Of a stretch of 64,000 nucleotides of DNA, positions 23,605 to 35,792 are shown one piece after another. The DNA comes from Anatilimnocola floriformis (GTDB lineage: Bacteria; Planctomycetota; Planctomycetia; Pirellulales; Pirellulaceae): contig NZ_JAMLFW010000005.1 of assembly GCF_024256385.1 (NCBI RefSeq), positions 1 through 64,000 on the forward strand, read 5' to 3'. Within the stretch, counting starts at the first letter, position 1, and every line of letters starts with the position of its first letter. The translations under genes and the position numbers were made by a program. The notes beneath the pieces were generated by a model, which was not told the DNA's origin, made no database searches, and saw nothing but the letters and a program-made list of their open reading frames with translations.

Positions 23605-24513
23605 CTAGTCACCCATCGCTTCGAGGGCTTCCATCTCGCGTTCGCGAGGATCTTTCAAGCTGTCGGCGAGGCGGGCGAGGGCTTCGGTTTCGATCTGACG
23701 GACGCGTTCGCGGGTCAGGCCGAGGCTTTCGCCGATTTCCTTCAGCGTGTGGGGCTCGGTGTTCTCGAGGCCGAACCGCATCTTCAGAACGGTCGCTTCC
23801 CGCACGTCCATTGTCGTCAGCATTTCGCGAATATGCTTCAGCGAATCGTCTTCGACCATCACGTCTTCGGGGTTCTTCAGACGCTCGTCCATGACGATCT
23901 CGCCCAGCGACCAGCCAGCTTCGGCTTGATCGGTCTGCGGCGTGCTGTTGTAAATGCGGATGGCCTTCTTGATGATCGGCAGCTTCTTCTTCTGCAAGCC
24001 GAGGACGCGGGCCACTTCTTCCGGCGTCGGCGTACGGCCGAGTTCTTCGGTGAGGCGAGCACTGGCACGACGCCATTTGCTCAGCAGCTCGACCATGTAG
24101 GCCGGAATGCGAATCGTCTTGGCGCTGTTGATCAGAGCGCGCTTGATCGATTGCTTGATCCAGTAGCTGGCATACGTGCTGAACCGCGTGCCGACGCCGG
24201 GGTCGAAGCCTTCGACCGCGCGGAGCAGGCCCAGGTTGCCCTCTTCGATGAGGTCTTGCAGGCTCAGGCCCTTGCCCGTGTAACCGCGGGCGATATTGAC
24301 GACCAGCCGCAGGTTGGCACGGACCATTCGGTCGCGAGCCCGCACATCGCCATCGGCGATCGCGGCGGCCAGTTCTTGTTCATCCTTCGCGGTAAGGAGT
24401 GCCGTTTCGTTGATCTCGCGGAGATAAGTCTCCAGCGGAGTTTGCAACGAGACGCTCTTACGGGGCGCAGCCTTTACCGCGGCTGCGGCCGTCTTGCGTT
24501 TGAGCATGGCCAT
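23605..24513 (-). CDS. Sigma-70 family RNA polymerase sigma factor (RpoD/RpoS-like group)
   Basis: The 302-residue product has sigma region 1.2 (PLETYLREINETALL), region 2 with ANLRLVVNIARGYTGKG, LQDLIEEGNLGLLRAVEGFDP and FSTYASYWIKQSIKRAL, region 3 with RIPAYMVELL and region 4 with TLKEIGESLGLTRERVRQIETEAL. Region 1.1 is absent, so it is shorter than a full primary sigma and resembles group 2 factors. The start may be ATG 24513 or ATG 24507. It directs RNA polymerase to -35/-10 promoters. No anti-sigma gene is adjacent. Confidence 0.95.
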   Translation of the reverse strand: MAMLKRKTAAAAVKAAPRKSVSLQTPLETYLREINETALLTAKDEQELAAAIADGDVRARDRMVRANLRLVVNIARGYTGKGLSLQDLIEEGNLGLLRAVEGFDPGVGTRFSTYASYWIKQSIKRALINSAKTIRIPAYMVELLSKWRRASARLTEELGRTPTPEEVARVLGLQKKKLPIIKKAIRIYNSTPQTDQAEAGWSLGEIVMDERLKNPEDVMVEDDSLKHIREMLTTMDVREATVLKMRFGLENTEPHTLKEIGESLGLTRERVRQIETEALARLADSLKDPREREMEALEAMGD

Positions 24514-31720: not shown

Positions 31721-33226
31721 CTATTTGGTCGCCGTGCTGGGCTTTTGCGCTGTTTCGCCAGCGGGCTTTTCGGCCGGTGTTGGTTCGCCGGCGGACTTCG
31801 GTGGGTCGAACAGGCGGAAGCCAGAGATTAGTTCCTGATCGATGTGGGCGTACTTTTCCACGAGCTTCGCATCAATGGTGAAGACCAGCGAAGCGCGGCG
31901 GCCTTCGGAATCGGAGACGTGATAATAGGTCCACTGGATCGGAATTTCCGAGGCAGCGCCAGTGACGAGCAGGCGGTACACCAGCAAGCCGTTATCGGTG
32001 GTGTTTTGCGAGGCTTCGGCGATGGTGCCCTTGTTTTGCTCGAGGGCTTTCTTCACGTCCCCCTGAAAGGCTTCGATCGTGAGCTTCTCGTCCTTGGCGA
32101 AGTTCTTGAGTTTGGCGATGTTGCATTGGGCGATGAGTTCGCCACGATCGACAAGCCGCAGGACCGCGCTGTCGTAACGCTCGGTCATCACCCGCCAACG
32201 GCGATCGTGGTTGAGCTCGAGACCACCTTTTTCGGAACGGAAGGTCAGCAGCTTTTGACCAAGGCCTGCCGTGAGGGGCAGCATGCTGAGGGACTTTTCG
32301 CTGAGCTCGGGCGCGTCGTCGGTGAGGGCCGTGAGGATGCGGATCCGCGTGGTGACGTCGTAACCCGGCTGGGCATGGCCGACCGCGCGATTTTCGGTGA
32401 AGCTGAGGGCGATCCAGGTGAGGAGTTGCTCCTTGGGATCGAGGTTGATCTTGGCTTTGAGATTTACTTCGCTCGAAACGCCACCGACCGCGCCGGTGAC
32501 TTTTCCTTCGAGCGAGAGAATCGCAATGCCATCGCGCAGCTCGTCGAACTTGCCGACAACGTCATGCTTGTGAACGGCATCGAGACTGAGCAGTCGAACC
32601 ACGGCAGCATCGGGCACCGGCCAGGTTTCGCCAACCTTCAGGGCTTTGCCGGGCAGGAGCGACTCAGGCAATACGCCGGTGCCGGGAACGTCGATCAGTT
32701 CGAGTTCCTCACGGAGCAGTGGCCCCTCGGGCGAGAAGTAGATCCCCTCGTCGCTTTCGGCCTGCAGCACGACCAATCGGCGCTCGTCGCGCAGCTTCTC
32801 GCTGAACTCGGTGTTTTTCAGATTGAATTTGGTTTCCGCCGTTTCGTAGTGGCGAACCAGGCGAGTGGCAGCCGAGTCTTTTCCGGCCGGCTTTGTTTCC
32901 GGCAGCCGCCGTTGCAAGAACAGCTGGTCGGCGGTTACTGACATGGGGAGGAATTTCACTTCCCGCCCGGTGGGGTTCATTTTCATCTGGCCGGAGACTT
33001 CGACAGCGACCTTCACCCGCTGGGTGCGCGTCTCATTGGAGTTGACTGCTAGCAGCAGCGCGCCGTCCTTGCTGGGCTTGGCGTCGTCGGCAGCGTAGGT
33101 AGCAGTTCCCGCAGTGGCGAGAAGGCCTGCCACTGCCGAAACCCGCAAAAATTTCCGCCGAGAAATTTCAGCGGACAAGGAATCGGTGCTGGCAACGAAG
33201 TGTTTATAGTGGCGGAGATGCGTCAT
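31721..33226 (-). CDS. Tat-exported hypothetical protein
   Basis: The 501-residue product has a twin-arginine signal: ISRRKFLRVSAVAGLLATAG at about residues 21-40, with the S-R-R-x-F-L consensus. The mature part is a repetitive beta-rich domain (VKVAVEVSGQMKMN, VLQAESDEGIYFSPEGPLL, GKVTGAVGGVSSEVNLKAKI) similar to planctomycete proteins of unknown function, ending in a Pro/Ala/Glu-rich tail. It is exported folded, so a cofactor or quick folding may be involved. No catalytic motif is evident. Separate from neighbours. Confidence 0.82.
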   Translation of the reverse strand: MTHLRHYKHFVASTDSLSAEISRRKFLRVSAVAGLLATAGTATYAADDAKPSKDGALLLAVNSNETRTQRVKVAVEVSGQMKMNPTGREVKFLPMSVTADQLFLQRRLPETKPAGKDSAATRLVRHYETAETKFNLKNTEFSEKLRDERRLVVLQAESDEGIYFSPEGPLLREELELIDVPGTGVLPESLLPGKALKVGETWPVPDAAVVRLLSLDAVHKHDVVGKFDELRDGIAILSLEGKVTGAVGGVSSEVNLKAKINLDPKEQLLTWIALSFTENRAVGHAQPGYDVTTRIRILTALTDDAPELSEKSLSMLPLTAGLGQKLLTFRSEKGGLELNHDRRWRVMTERYDSAVLRLVDRGELIAQCNIAKLKNFAKDEKLTIEAFQGDVKKALEQNKGTIAEASQNTTDNGLLVYRLLVTGAASEIPIQWTYYHVSDSEGRRASLVFTIDAKLVEKYAHIDQELISGFRLFDPPKSAGEPTPAEKPAGETAQKPSTATK

Positions 33227-33952
33227 TTTGGATCCCGATTTGAGACGGCGGTCCCGAATCGAGACTTCGCCCCTTCGCCCGACCTACCCAGTTTGCGGAT
33301 TAGTCCTATTCCGCGGGGTAACAAGCATCGTGATCATCGGTTTGGGACGGTGGCGGTGTTCAACAAAACCCAATTGTCCGGCGTGTGGTTTGTGCTGGTG
33401 AGACTGGATTGTTGTCCCCGGAAGCGATCTGGTCGCTGTGATAGCAAAGTCACGCAGAGAACGGCAAAACGTGGCGCTTTTCGATCGATTCGGCCCTGAG
33501 AATATGTGCCGCGATTGCGGGTTGGGAGAAATCCAAAGCGCAAGCGCGAACTTGAGTTACAGCGGATGTGACTTACTCAATAACGGCGGTTTGCCGCGTA
33601 CCGTTGGCCAAGGTGTCCAACGCGGCATAGCAAATGCATCCCTCCAAAGCGTTGCCCGAGTGGCTGTCACAAATTTTAAGGCGCGGTGTCTTTCAGAATG
33701 TGACAAACGTCCGGCAAAAACCAACTAAGAGTCATCAACAAGTGTAAGGAATTGCTCGACACCCGGTATCTGATGGTGAGAGAGAACAAACGTTGATCTG
33801 CAAGCGTAAGTGAGTGCAGGAGTTCGGCGGTTAGTGAGCAAGAGGCTCACTGGCAAGAGGCGGACCCAATCGATCAGTCGGCGGCAGGAGGCCAGGAACA
33901 GTCGGCGGATCGGAAAATCCCGGCCATAAACCGGGTAGAATAGAGGCTTATC
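33227..33952. other. 726-bp region without a convincing gene, upstream of the HTH-sigma factor
   Basis: It is flanked by divergent genes. Two plus-strand frames (near 33200-33499 and 33438-33728) lack motifs and ribosome-binding sites and are not called. The length suggests a long 5' leader or several regulatory sites for the sigma-factor gene. I see no hairpin with a T-run and no known riboswitch pattern. Confidence 0.45.
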
Positions 33953-35617
33953 ATGCATGCCAGTTATGTCAACTCGTCCCTCAAGCAGCTGCGAGACCAG
34001 CAGGTTCGCTTCGCGCCTCGGGAAAAGAAAATCGAACAAGTAAACCGGGCCGAACGGCTCCTCGCCGAGATGGACCGGGAACGCAACTATACGTACGAGT
34101 ACCTCTGTTTCCGCATTACGGACTATCGCCCCGAAGCGACTCCGAGCGTGGTGATGGACGGGAAAGACGCCATTCACGATCTCCGGCTGTTTGTCGAAGA
34201 CGTATCTGACGCCGCCAACATCCCCGTCGGCGATGCCGGCGAGCCGGTGCACACCGTCGAAGAACTCAGCAAGCTCTTCAAGGTTTCGACCAAGACCATC
34301 GCGCGTTGGCGTGAGCAGGGTCTGGTGAGCCGTCGTTTTGTGTTCGAAGGACGTCGCAAACGCGTGGGTTTCCTGCGCAGCAGCGTCGAACGCTTCATGA
34401 CCCAGAACGAAGAGAAGATCAAACGCGGCGAAAAGTTTAGCCAGCTGACCGAAATCGAGAAGACCGAGATCATCGATCGCGCTCGTCGCCTGGCGACGGC
34501 TGGCGGTTGCCCCTCGGAAGTTGCTCGCCGCGTCGCGAAGCGGATGAACCGGAGCGTCGAAACGATTCGTTACACCCTGCGAAACTTCGATCAGCAGAAT
34601 CCCCATCTGGCCATTTTCCCGGACCAGACGGGCCTGTTGTCGGACGAGCAGAAGCAGCGGATCTATCAGCAAGCCAAACGCGGTGATTCGATCGACGTGC
34701 TCGCCAAGCGGTACTGCCGCACGCGGACCACGGTCTATCGTGTGCTGAACGAAGTTCGCGCCAAGCGGATTTTGGAACTGCCGCTCGAATACATGCACCA
34801 CGAAAGCTTCACGCCCGAGAACGAAAAAGAGTTCTTTGGCCCGATGCCGGTGCCAGAAACCCCGACGCGCAAGCTGCGCAGCCCGAGTGGATTGCCGCCG
34901 TACCTGGCTGCTCTCTACGAAGTGCCGCTGCTGGCTCGTGAGCAGGAGATGCACTTGTTCCGCAAGTTCAACTTCCTGAAGCACAAGGCCAAGACGCTTC
35001 GCGATCAGCTCAATCCCGCCGCCGCTCGCACCAGCGAGATGAACGAGATTGAGAACTTGTACGAAGAAGCGGTCAAGGTGAAGAACGAGATCGTGCAGGC
35101 CAACCTGCGGCTGGTGGTTTCGATCGCCAAGCGGCACGTGAGCGGCACGGAAGATTTCTTCAGCCTGGTGAGCGATGGCAATATGTCGCTGATCCGTGCC
35201 GTCGAGAAGTTCGACTTCTCGCGCGGCAACAAGTTCAGCACGTACGCCTCGTGGGCCATCATGAAGAACTTCGCCCGCACCATTCCGGAAGAGTACAAGC
35301 GGCGCGACCGCTTCCGCACCAGCCAGGACGAACTGTTCGTCGGCCAAGCCGATAGCCGGCCGGACTCGCTAAATCAGGAAGTAGTGCAGAACACGCTGGA
35401 GTCGCAGGTGCAAAAGATCCTGGCCCAGCTCGACGAACGCGAACGGCAGATCATCATCAGCCGCTTCGGCCTCGATCACAGCCAAGAACCGCTGACCCTC
35501 AAAGAAGTCGGCGCCGAAATGGGTGTGACCAAGGAACGCGTCCGCCAGATTGAGTCGCGTGCTCTGACGAAGGCTCGTCAGGTCGCGATGAGCGAACACA
35601 TCGAACTGCCGGACTAA
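33953..35617 (+). CDS. Sigma-70 factor with three N-terminal helix-turn-helix segments
   Basis: The 554-residue product couples DNA-binding modules to a sigma core. Segment 1 (about 98-148) is MerR/excisionase-like: VHTVEELSKLFKVSTKTIAR, then WREQGLVSRRFVFEGRRKRV. Segment 2 (about 165-212) holds GGCPSEVARRVAKRMNRSVE. Segment 3 (about 228-272) holds DSIDVLAKRYCRTRTTVYRV. The core has region 1.2 (LPPYLAALYEVPLL), region 2 (ANLRLVVSIAKRHV, LVSDGNMSLIRAVEKFDF, FSTYASWAIMKNF) and region 4 (TLKEVGAEMGVTKERVRQIE). Sigma region 3 is short. This architecture is seen in planctomycetes but its regulation is not described that I know of. An ideal terminator follows at 35651. Confidence 0.93.
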   Translation: MHASYVNSSLKQLRDQQVRFAPREKKIEQVNRAERLLAEMDRERNYTYEYLCFRITDYRPEATPSVVMDGKDAIHDLRLFVEDVSDAANIPVGDAGEPVHTVEELSKLFKVSTKTIARWREQGLVSRRFVFEGRRKRVGFLRSSVERFMTQNEEKIKRGEKFSQLTEIEKTEIIDRARRLATAGGCPSEVARRVAKRMNRSVETIRYTLRNFDQQNPHLAIFPDQTGLLSDEQKQRIYQQAKRGDSIDVLAKRYCRTRTTVYRVLNEVRAKRILELPLEYMHHESFTPENEKEFFGPMPVPETPTRKLRSPSGLPPYLAALYEVPLLAREQEMHLFRKFNFLKHKAKTLRDQLNPAAARTSEMNEIENLYEEAVKVKNEIVQANLRLVVSIAKRHVSGTEDFFSLVSDGNMSLIRAVEKFDFSRGNKFSTYASWAIMKNFARTIPEEYKRRDRFRTSQDELFVGQADSRPDSLNQEVVQNTLESQVQKILAQLDERERQIIISRFGLDHSQEPLTLKEVGAEMGVTKERVRQIESRALTKARQVAMSEHIELPD

Positions 35618-35650
35618 ATTCGGCCGTGAGATTTTGAAAAGCAACCTTCG

Positions 35651-35678
35651 GGGATGAGCGAAAGCTCATCCCTTTTTT
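35651..35678 (+). terminator. Rho-independent terminator of the HTH-sigma gene
   Basis: GGGATGAGC (35651-35659), tetraloop GAAA, GCTCATCCC (35664-35672) and six T residues (35673-35678). Stem is perfect over nine base pairs; it lies 34 bp after the stop. Confidence 0.92.
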
Positions 35679-35792
35679 CGTTTGAAAGTTGGGTTCGATG
35701 GCTACTCCCTACGCTAAAAGGAGTTGCAATACCCCACGCACCATGTAGTCTGAACGTTTCGTTATTCGCAGCCTTCCTGAAGCGACTGTCCA

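Follow-up and report, generated by a model that had tools for sequence, protein, structure and literature searches.

How a sigma factor comes to carry what looks like a DNA-binding protein at its N-terminus, and what such an attachment would do there, are the questions raised by a gene of Anatilimnocola floriformis (Planctomycetota; Planctomycetia; Pirellulales). Promoter recognition by a sigma factor normally depends on its regions 2 to 4, while activation is left to other proteins. The gene lies in the 64,000-nucleotide stretch analysed here (the window), where an open reading frame with an ATG start covers exactly positions 33953 to 35617 (+) and encodes 554 residues. A first-pass annotation had described three helix-turn-helix (HTH) segments ahead of an otherwise normal sigma-70 core, and had proposed that a regulator is fused to a sigma factor and may control its own gene. 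The features discussed below are collected in Table 1.

Table 1. Features of the array-sigma gene and its flanks (all on the forward strand of the window).
Feature	Position	Strand	Basis or assignment
Two-box element GCGCGAACTT-N15-TGACTTA	33544..33575	+	Candidate promoter or operator
Probable leader RNA hairpin, GGA in loop and in 3' bulge	33871..33912	+	Window form by RNAfold; covariation in relatives
HTH-array sigma factor gene, 554 aa	33953..35617	+	ORF, Pfam, orthologue alignment, AlphaFold2
N0, conserved N-terminal helical domain, residues 1-93	33953..34231	+	AlphaFold2, orthologue profiles
HTH1, winged, MerR/BldC/excisionase-like, residues 98-151	34244..34405	+	Pfam, sequence and structure matches
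HTH2, trihelical HTH, residues 163-216	34439..34600	+	AlphaFold2; HTH_28 above cut-off in L141
HTH3, homeodomain/resolvase/Mor-like HTH, residues 228-276	34634..34780	+	Pfam, AlphaFold2
Sigma region 1.2, residues 311-345	34883..34987	+	phmmer to HrdB/SigA chains from residue 313; no Pfam r1_2 match
Sigma region 2, residues 377-446, altered 2.4	35081..35290	+	Pfam, phmmer; by-eye comparison with L122/L123
Sigma region 4, residues 472-547, RpoD-like 4.2 TKERVRQIE	35366..35593	+	Pfam, AlphaFold2
Intrinsic-terminator-like hairpin and T run	35650..35682	+	Terminator scan

Contigs of one genome per species were scanned for relatives, and the best 80 of 402 relative-encoding stretches were kept; the other 322 may include other sigma factors. 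Full-length orthologues, 60-69% identical, are encoded in 79 of these best 80 of 402, and the three HTH segments align in all 79. The start column holds M in 78 of these 79 and V in one. L078, whose ORF is in two pieces, was excluded from the orthologue counts.

The protein was modelled with AlphaFold2 both whole (61 aligned sequences; alignment A1, the window and 60 of the 80 loci) and as residues 1-303 alone (77 rows; A2, the window and 76 of the 80). The whole-protein model has a mean pLDDT of 83.6 and a pTM of 0.45, so that the position of the array relative to the core is undefined in it; the corresponding values for the N-terminal part are 86.1 and 0.60. The predicted units are N0 (1-93), a winged HTH (102-151), two trihelical HTHs (167-215 and 231-274), sigma regions 1.2-2 (316-443), a low-confidence linker (445-470), and region 4 (472-547). 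The three segments announced ahead of the core are thus predicted to fold as HTHs, and, as they also align in the 79 orthologues, the refuting outcome named in the first-pass annotation did not arise.

Regions 2 and 4, by which membership of the sigma-70 family is judged, are both present: Sigma70_r2 scores 46.7 bits (cut-off 24) at 380-438 and Sigma70_r4 65.4 bits (cut-off 24.1) at 490-542. With phmmer, the core aligns with SigA and HrdB chains from residue 313 (E 2e-34), which takes in region 1.2, yet the Pfam r1_2 profile gives no match. TIGR02937 is above its cut-off (92.4 vs 42.9), the ECF family PF07638 has no match in the window protein, and region 1.2 is apparently present. The protein resembles primary and group 2 sigma-70 factors (RpoD, SigA, HrdB), with which regions 1.2, 2 and 4 align, and region 4.2 retains the RpoD-type residues TKERVRQIE. 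Residues Y431 and W434 are retained as well, and we take them to be equivalent to E. coli Y430 and W433. The best NCBIfam match is MzaA, the sigma factor of the MZA anti-phage system (NF041931); the better of its two matching stretches, 337-445, lies in the sigma core, and the score falls far short of the cut-off (150 vs 800 bits).

In three respects, the window protein differs from RpoD, SigA and HrdB. N0 and three HTHs precede region 1.2, region 2.4 is altered, and region 3 was not detected. No PF04539 match was found in the window protein at E<=1, and a genome-wide search with the same profile gave five other places, none at this gene. A region 3 concealed in the linker was considered and set aside; Pfam does not detect one, and the linker (445-470) lies below pLDDT 50 in the model. 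Compared by eye, region 2.4 reads STYASWAIMKNFAR in the window protein vs STYATWWIRQAITR in L122, an RpoD-like protein of the same genome, so that WWIRQAIT is replaced by WAIMKNFA, and the window protein lacks the canonical motif by which region 2.4 reads the -10 element. L122 and a second RpoD-like protein of this genome, L123, have both region 3 and the canonical 2.4 motif. The description of region 2 as normal is consequently not supported, and the earlier list of modules lacked N0, the altered region 2.4 and the absence of a detectable region 3. The window also encodes a second sigma-70 factor, at 23605-24513 (-), with Pfam regions 1.2, 2, 3 and 4.

The evidence for the individual HTHs is uneven. 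HTH3 is the clearest in the window protein, with HTH_23, HTH_28, HTH_29 and HTH_38 all exceeding their Pfam cut-offs at 229-273. The curated cut-offs of HTH_17 and MerR are not reached at 101-152 of the window protein (24.7 vs 27 and 20.9 vs 28.2 bits), and among distant orthologues HTH1 exceeds the HTH_17 cut-off in L135 (50.5 bits), L149 (34.0) and L145 (30.7). HTH1 also matches an excisionase PHROG at 1.7e-7, resembles BldC weakly by phmmer (E 0.016 for 6amk and 0.023 for 6ama), and superimposes on BldC and Xis structures with Z of 6.1-6.2 and rmsd of 2.1-2.6, a Z in the range of common arrangements. HTH2 has no best-stretch Pfam match of its own in the window protein. In orthologue L141, HTH_28 is above cut-off at 197-248, and we assign this match to HTH2 because HTH3 follows at 255-289. 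Comparison of the module with the structure library gave no Foldseek match at E<=0.001 and only structural Z values under 7; since these structure matches are weak, the HTH label is based on sequence profiles and predicted fold. The proposal that HTH2 and HTH3 are a displaced sigma3-4 or a paired domain was rejected as too weak (VIA-align Z about 6, rmsd 15-21). A mobile-element origin of the module was likewise dismissed, with no relatives found in plasmids or in viral contigs (two short peptide patterns only).

The most conserved portion of the array is formed by its recognition helices and wing. Across 80 rows, positions conserved at 95% or more make up 28 of the 47 residues in these elements vs 20 of the 110 other HTH residues (Fisher p 9e-7, which is optimistic as the 47 positions were set after conservation was seen). 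The net charges are +8, +4 and +6 for HTH1, HTH2 and HTH3, and -2 for N0. Together with the architecture, this conservation pattern favors the earlier proposal that a probable DNA-binding module has been fused to a sigma factor.

N0 is more elusive, as none of the searches made gave a fold for it. N0 is absent or unrecognizable in family f8 of the order, where the matches start no earlier than about residue 65-97; the N0 score is 0 in L154. Two short sigma factors, L159 and L164 (ORFs of 379-381 aa), consist of N0 and core without the HTHs, a form that is possibly an ancestral or a stripped version.

BldC of Streptomyces, which is MerR-like, and phage Xis are small stand-alone DNA-binding proteins. 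HTH1 resembles their winged HTH in sequence and fold, whereas here it belongs to an array of three HTHs fused to a sigma core. A sigma factor with an extra domain has a parallel in the same phylum: PMC8567305 describes planctomycete ECF (group 4) sigma factors that carry added domains such as WD40. In contrast to those, the present protein apparently has region 1.2, resembles RpoD in regions 2 and 4, and carries as its extra part an HTH array at the N-terminus. No description of a fusion between a sigma factor and three HTHs was found in the open-access papers searched.

In a survey with a profile of the N-terminal part, a match is present in 196 of the 198 genomes sampled from the class and in all 109 genera sampled. 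Among the 177 genomes with a completeness of 90% or more and a contamination of 5% or less, 176 match. The gene is mostly single copy: one match is present in 185 of the 196 genomes, and two or three in the other 11, some of which are split genes. With a single-sequence query, 142 of 146 genomes of the order match, five of them with a second match, and each of the 20 nearest relatives has exactly one; a genome of the same genus is 89% identical over residues 1-303. A second copy of the array region, 44-45% identical, was noticed in three genomes of the order (G064, G084 and G089), and by sequence these copies are possible paralogues. The family becomes patchy across the phylum sample, with matches in 89 of 392 genomes (83 of 217 good genomes). 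Within the best 80 of 402 stretches, the mean top-residue frequency is 0.87 in region 2, 0.84 in both HTH1 and region 1.2, 0.74 in HTH2, and 0.65 in HTH3; region 2 is the most conserved part in the order-level orthologues.

The fate of the two halves outside the class is informative. We fetched 60 loci, comprising 48 of the 49 outside-class matches (the partial G220 was excluded) and 12 from the class, and scored them with profiles built from the order-level orthologues. The core scores are bimodal, with 33 loci at 131 bits or more, 27 at 69 bits or less, and a gap between. All 27 loci with decayed cores lie outside the class, where they account for 27 of the 48 loci; one of these genes, L161, is incomplete and lies at the end of its contig. 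The array is retained more often. All three HTHs score at least 10 bits in 27 of the 33 core-intact and 16 of the 27 decayed loci, and at least two do so in 30 of 33 and 24 of 27. A check with Pfam, which is independent of the order-level profiles, was run on 10 of the 26 decayed and 10 of the 33 core-intact proteins. Region 2 is above cut-off in 0 of the 10 decayed vs all 10 core-intact proteins, the latter including L159, which lacks the HTHs. Among the 10 decayed proteins, seven (L142, L146, L144, L163, L145, L149 and L172) have one or more HTH families above cut-off at the array, L169 and L182 have none there, and L162 is a borderline case. Region 4 is lost or reduced but not always lost, as three of the 10 decayed proteins (L149, L162 and L182) keep a Pfam match at the C-terminus.

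The same trend is seen at individual residues, in a comparison from which L159, L161 and L164 were excluded. The 26 decayed proteins retain T115 in 23, R118 in 25, R120 in 25, G123 in 26, E203 in 22, R206 in 26, and R263 in 24 cases, while the HTH positions S112, R135, S201, T204, R256 and Y262 are variable in intact and decayed groups alike. In the core of the decayed proteins, replacements or gaps prevail at Y431, W434, G409-N410 and E528/R531/Q532; most of these proteins do keep G506 and a basic residue at 427. Mean pairwise identity over N0 and the HTHs is.29-.34 in the 26 decayed vs.26-.36 in 19 intact distant proteins, and that over regions 1.2 and 2 is.19 and.23 vs.41 and.48, respectively. 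The decayed and intact cores are still linked by profile-profile alignment, although the two profiles come from a single alignment. In a tree of the N-terminal part (58 rows, without the same three loci), the decayed state needs three changes, all forced by starred branches; this tree contains a long branch, and 15 of its rows have an odd composition. A single origin of decay for all 26 rows is rejected (AU p 0.0004). A single clade of the 25 decayed rows without L172 is not rejected (AU p 0.17), and for this reason we claim at least two losses rather than three. Since N-terminal parts survive the decay of the core, the module apparently has a function that can be separated from promoter melting.

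In many relatives, the gene lies 5' of tuf, secE and nusG. Of the 56 order-level loci whose downstream sequence extends for 3.9 kb or more, 41 have an EF-Tu gene 3' on the same strand. Genes for tRNA-Thr, Tyr, Gly and Thr, in that order, lie 3' of the gene in 32 of the 39 loci scanned, and in most cases tRNA-Trp lies beyond them. Where the flank is long enough, tuf is followed by SecE- and NusG-like ORFs; the one tuf, one secE and one nusG that were checked each pass their NCBIfam cut-off. In the 60 fetched loci, tuf is within the stretch in six of the 12 class-level loci and in none of the 48 outside-class loci at E<=1e-60. The link is absent from the window genome, as both of its EF-Tu genes are on another contig. 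The earlier view of the gene as a stand-alone unit therefore describes the window well, but not the order-level relatives in which a tRNA-tuf-secE-nusG cluster follows on the same strand. A strong terminator had also been noted. The hairpin at 35650-35673 is indeed present, but when the region is shuffled the same scan still finds 3.7 such sites on average; within 150 nt 3' of the gene, terminator-like hairpins occur in 25 of 78 orthologues vs three of 78 shuffled sequences. Upstream, the divergent gene (31721-33226, -) is kept in 63 of 70 loci, and Pfam found no known domain in its product, only a sub-threshold TAT signal. A different neighbor is seen among the 60 fetched loci (L135-L194): in 24 of them, a menaquinone-biosynthesis-like gene adjoins 5' in the same orientation; 21 of these 24 go with decayed forms, making up 21 of the 26 decayed loci, and the copy at L157 was checked as PF02621.

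The 726-bp gap to the divergent gene (33227-33952), whose length the first-pass annotation gave correctly, contains two candidate control elements. The first is a two-box DNA element whose form in relatives is GCGAACTT-N15-17-ACTT, often followed by CGTA (-N-CGTA). Scored with leave-one-out matrices against 312 control stretches, it is above the 1% control threshold in 24 of 78 leaders and above all 312 controls in 21, with a nearly fixed spacing (one gap length in 18 of the 24). A strict version of the pattern, composed after examples were seen, occurs in 15 of 80 leaders vs 0 in the rest of the same loci (1.42 million positions, both strands). The spacing suits a promoter (-35 GAACTT, -10 nACTTt) and equally a pair of half-sites separated by two turns of the helix. 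The exact pattern with CGTA gave 10 matches in 60 genomes vs 15 for the reversed control, and hence no regulon was found; four of the 10 are at the array-sigma gene itself (G005, G019, G021 and G023), and the window genome has no match because its copy lacks CGTA. Autoregulation, raised in the first-pass annotation, thus receives only circumstantial support from an element that recurs in these leaders and whose strict form is absent elsewhere in the loci. The element could also be a promoter for another sigma factor.

The second element is in the leader RNA. The motif CGCANGGA lies just 5' of the ribosome site in 40 of 80 leaders, the window not among them, against 0.7 expected. In 33 aligned rows, chosen by this motif and with the structure named by hand, 75% of the stem cells are paired vs 61.5% in shuffles, with 86 double changes vs 34.5; slid stems are 33-52% paired. 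RNAalifold predicted no pairs on the MAFFT leader alignment. Two GGA triplets, one in the loop and the other in the bulge 10 nt downstream of it, are among the most conserved leader positions. The window and the same-genus genome have a shorter form of the hairpin that folds alike. Model R1 was built from 22 of the 33 rows, and 22 of its 26 matches at E<1e-3 therefore arise by construction; the window copy gave no match. In 20 genomes, R1 found three matches at E<1e-3 and a fourth at E 0.006, all at the array-sigma gene, but its exclusivity is not strict, as one genome has a match elsewhere at E 0.0025 and there is another at E 0.04. Rfam gave none at gathering scores in eight of the 80 loci and none at E<=0.1 in the window leader. 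Two conserved GGA triplets near the ribosome site, one in a hairpin loop, are reminiscent of CsrA-regulated leaders. The genome has eight CsrA-family genes above cut-off (L195-L202), an unusually high number, and CARGGA is enriched in 79 leaders (47 vs 7.9 expected, a figure inflated by the shared hairpin). These two observations make CsrA control a fair guess and nothing firmer; the hairpin is possibly read by a CsrA protein.

What, then, is this protein? The reading we prefer, in which we have about as much belief as doubt, is of a sigma factor that its own HTH array tethers to DNA and that is probably autoregulated; the array would be separable, and the relatives with a decayed core would be regulators. 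The N-terminal array, one winged and two homeodomain-like HTHs, would hold core regions 1.2, 2 and 4 to DNA by binding a specific operator, a copy of which probably lies close to the promoter of the gene itself. In this way the attached sigma, together with core RNA polymerase, would be brought to a small set of promoters, whose -10 element would be read by the modified region 2.4. The array would have its own role in DNA binding and regulation, and it is mainly the array that is kept in some other planctomycete lineages, in which the sigma factor may have turned into a transcription regulator. Expression would probably be further tuned in the mRNA leader by the two-GGA hairpin, possibly via CsrA.

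The repeated loss of the core also invites an opposite emphasis, in which the array is the real protein, a regulator or of nucleoid type, and the core is an RNA polymerase contact or a relic that does not initiate. Decay at least twice with most of the array staying, and the clean split in Pfam region 2, speak for it. We nevertheless think it unlikely, because the window's order keeps the core, with region 2 its most conserved part and the RpoD-type 4.2, Y431 and W434 all in place. It is rather improbable, too, that the protein is an alternative sigma factor whose N-terminal helices bind protein or RNA, or inhibit like region 1.1, instead of binding DNA. N0 and the array do occupy the position of region 1.1, a short N0-sigma form without HTHs exists (L159, L164), and the structural Z values are low; these points must be set against the clustering of conserved residues on recognition helices and wing, the positive charge of each HTH next to a negative N0, and an array that outlives the sigma core, at least in part, in 27 loci. 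Class-wide occurrence, mostly in single copy, an RpoD-like 4.2 and a place 5' of tuf-secE-nusG in many relatives would even suit an ordinary housekeeping sigma factor with a decorative N-terminus. This we can scarcely credit: RpoD-like genes with region 3 are present in the genome, and L122 and L123 have the canonical 2.4 as well, unlike the array sigma with its altered 2.4 and no detected region 3.

On a wider view, held tentatively and with some doubt outweighing belief, the tethered sigma factor would derive from an old fusion of sigma and three HTHs, its array would act independently of initiation, at least two lineages would have converted the sigma factor into a regulator, and in the class that keeps it intact the protein would be a self-targeting sigma factor, led to its promoters by an operator of its own. 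A class-wide, mostly single-copy fusion of sigma factor and DNA-binding module would be a different route to target RNA polymerase. The tuf-secE-nusG linkage in many relatives, the gene's own conserved DNA element and its leader RNA suggest a core role in planctomycetes, in which transcription control is little studied. If this wider reading is true, living genomes of this family show a sigma factor being converted to a DNA-binding regulator. As relatives keep most of the DNA-binding half while losing the sigma half, the role of each half can be asked directly.
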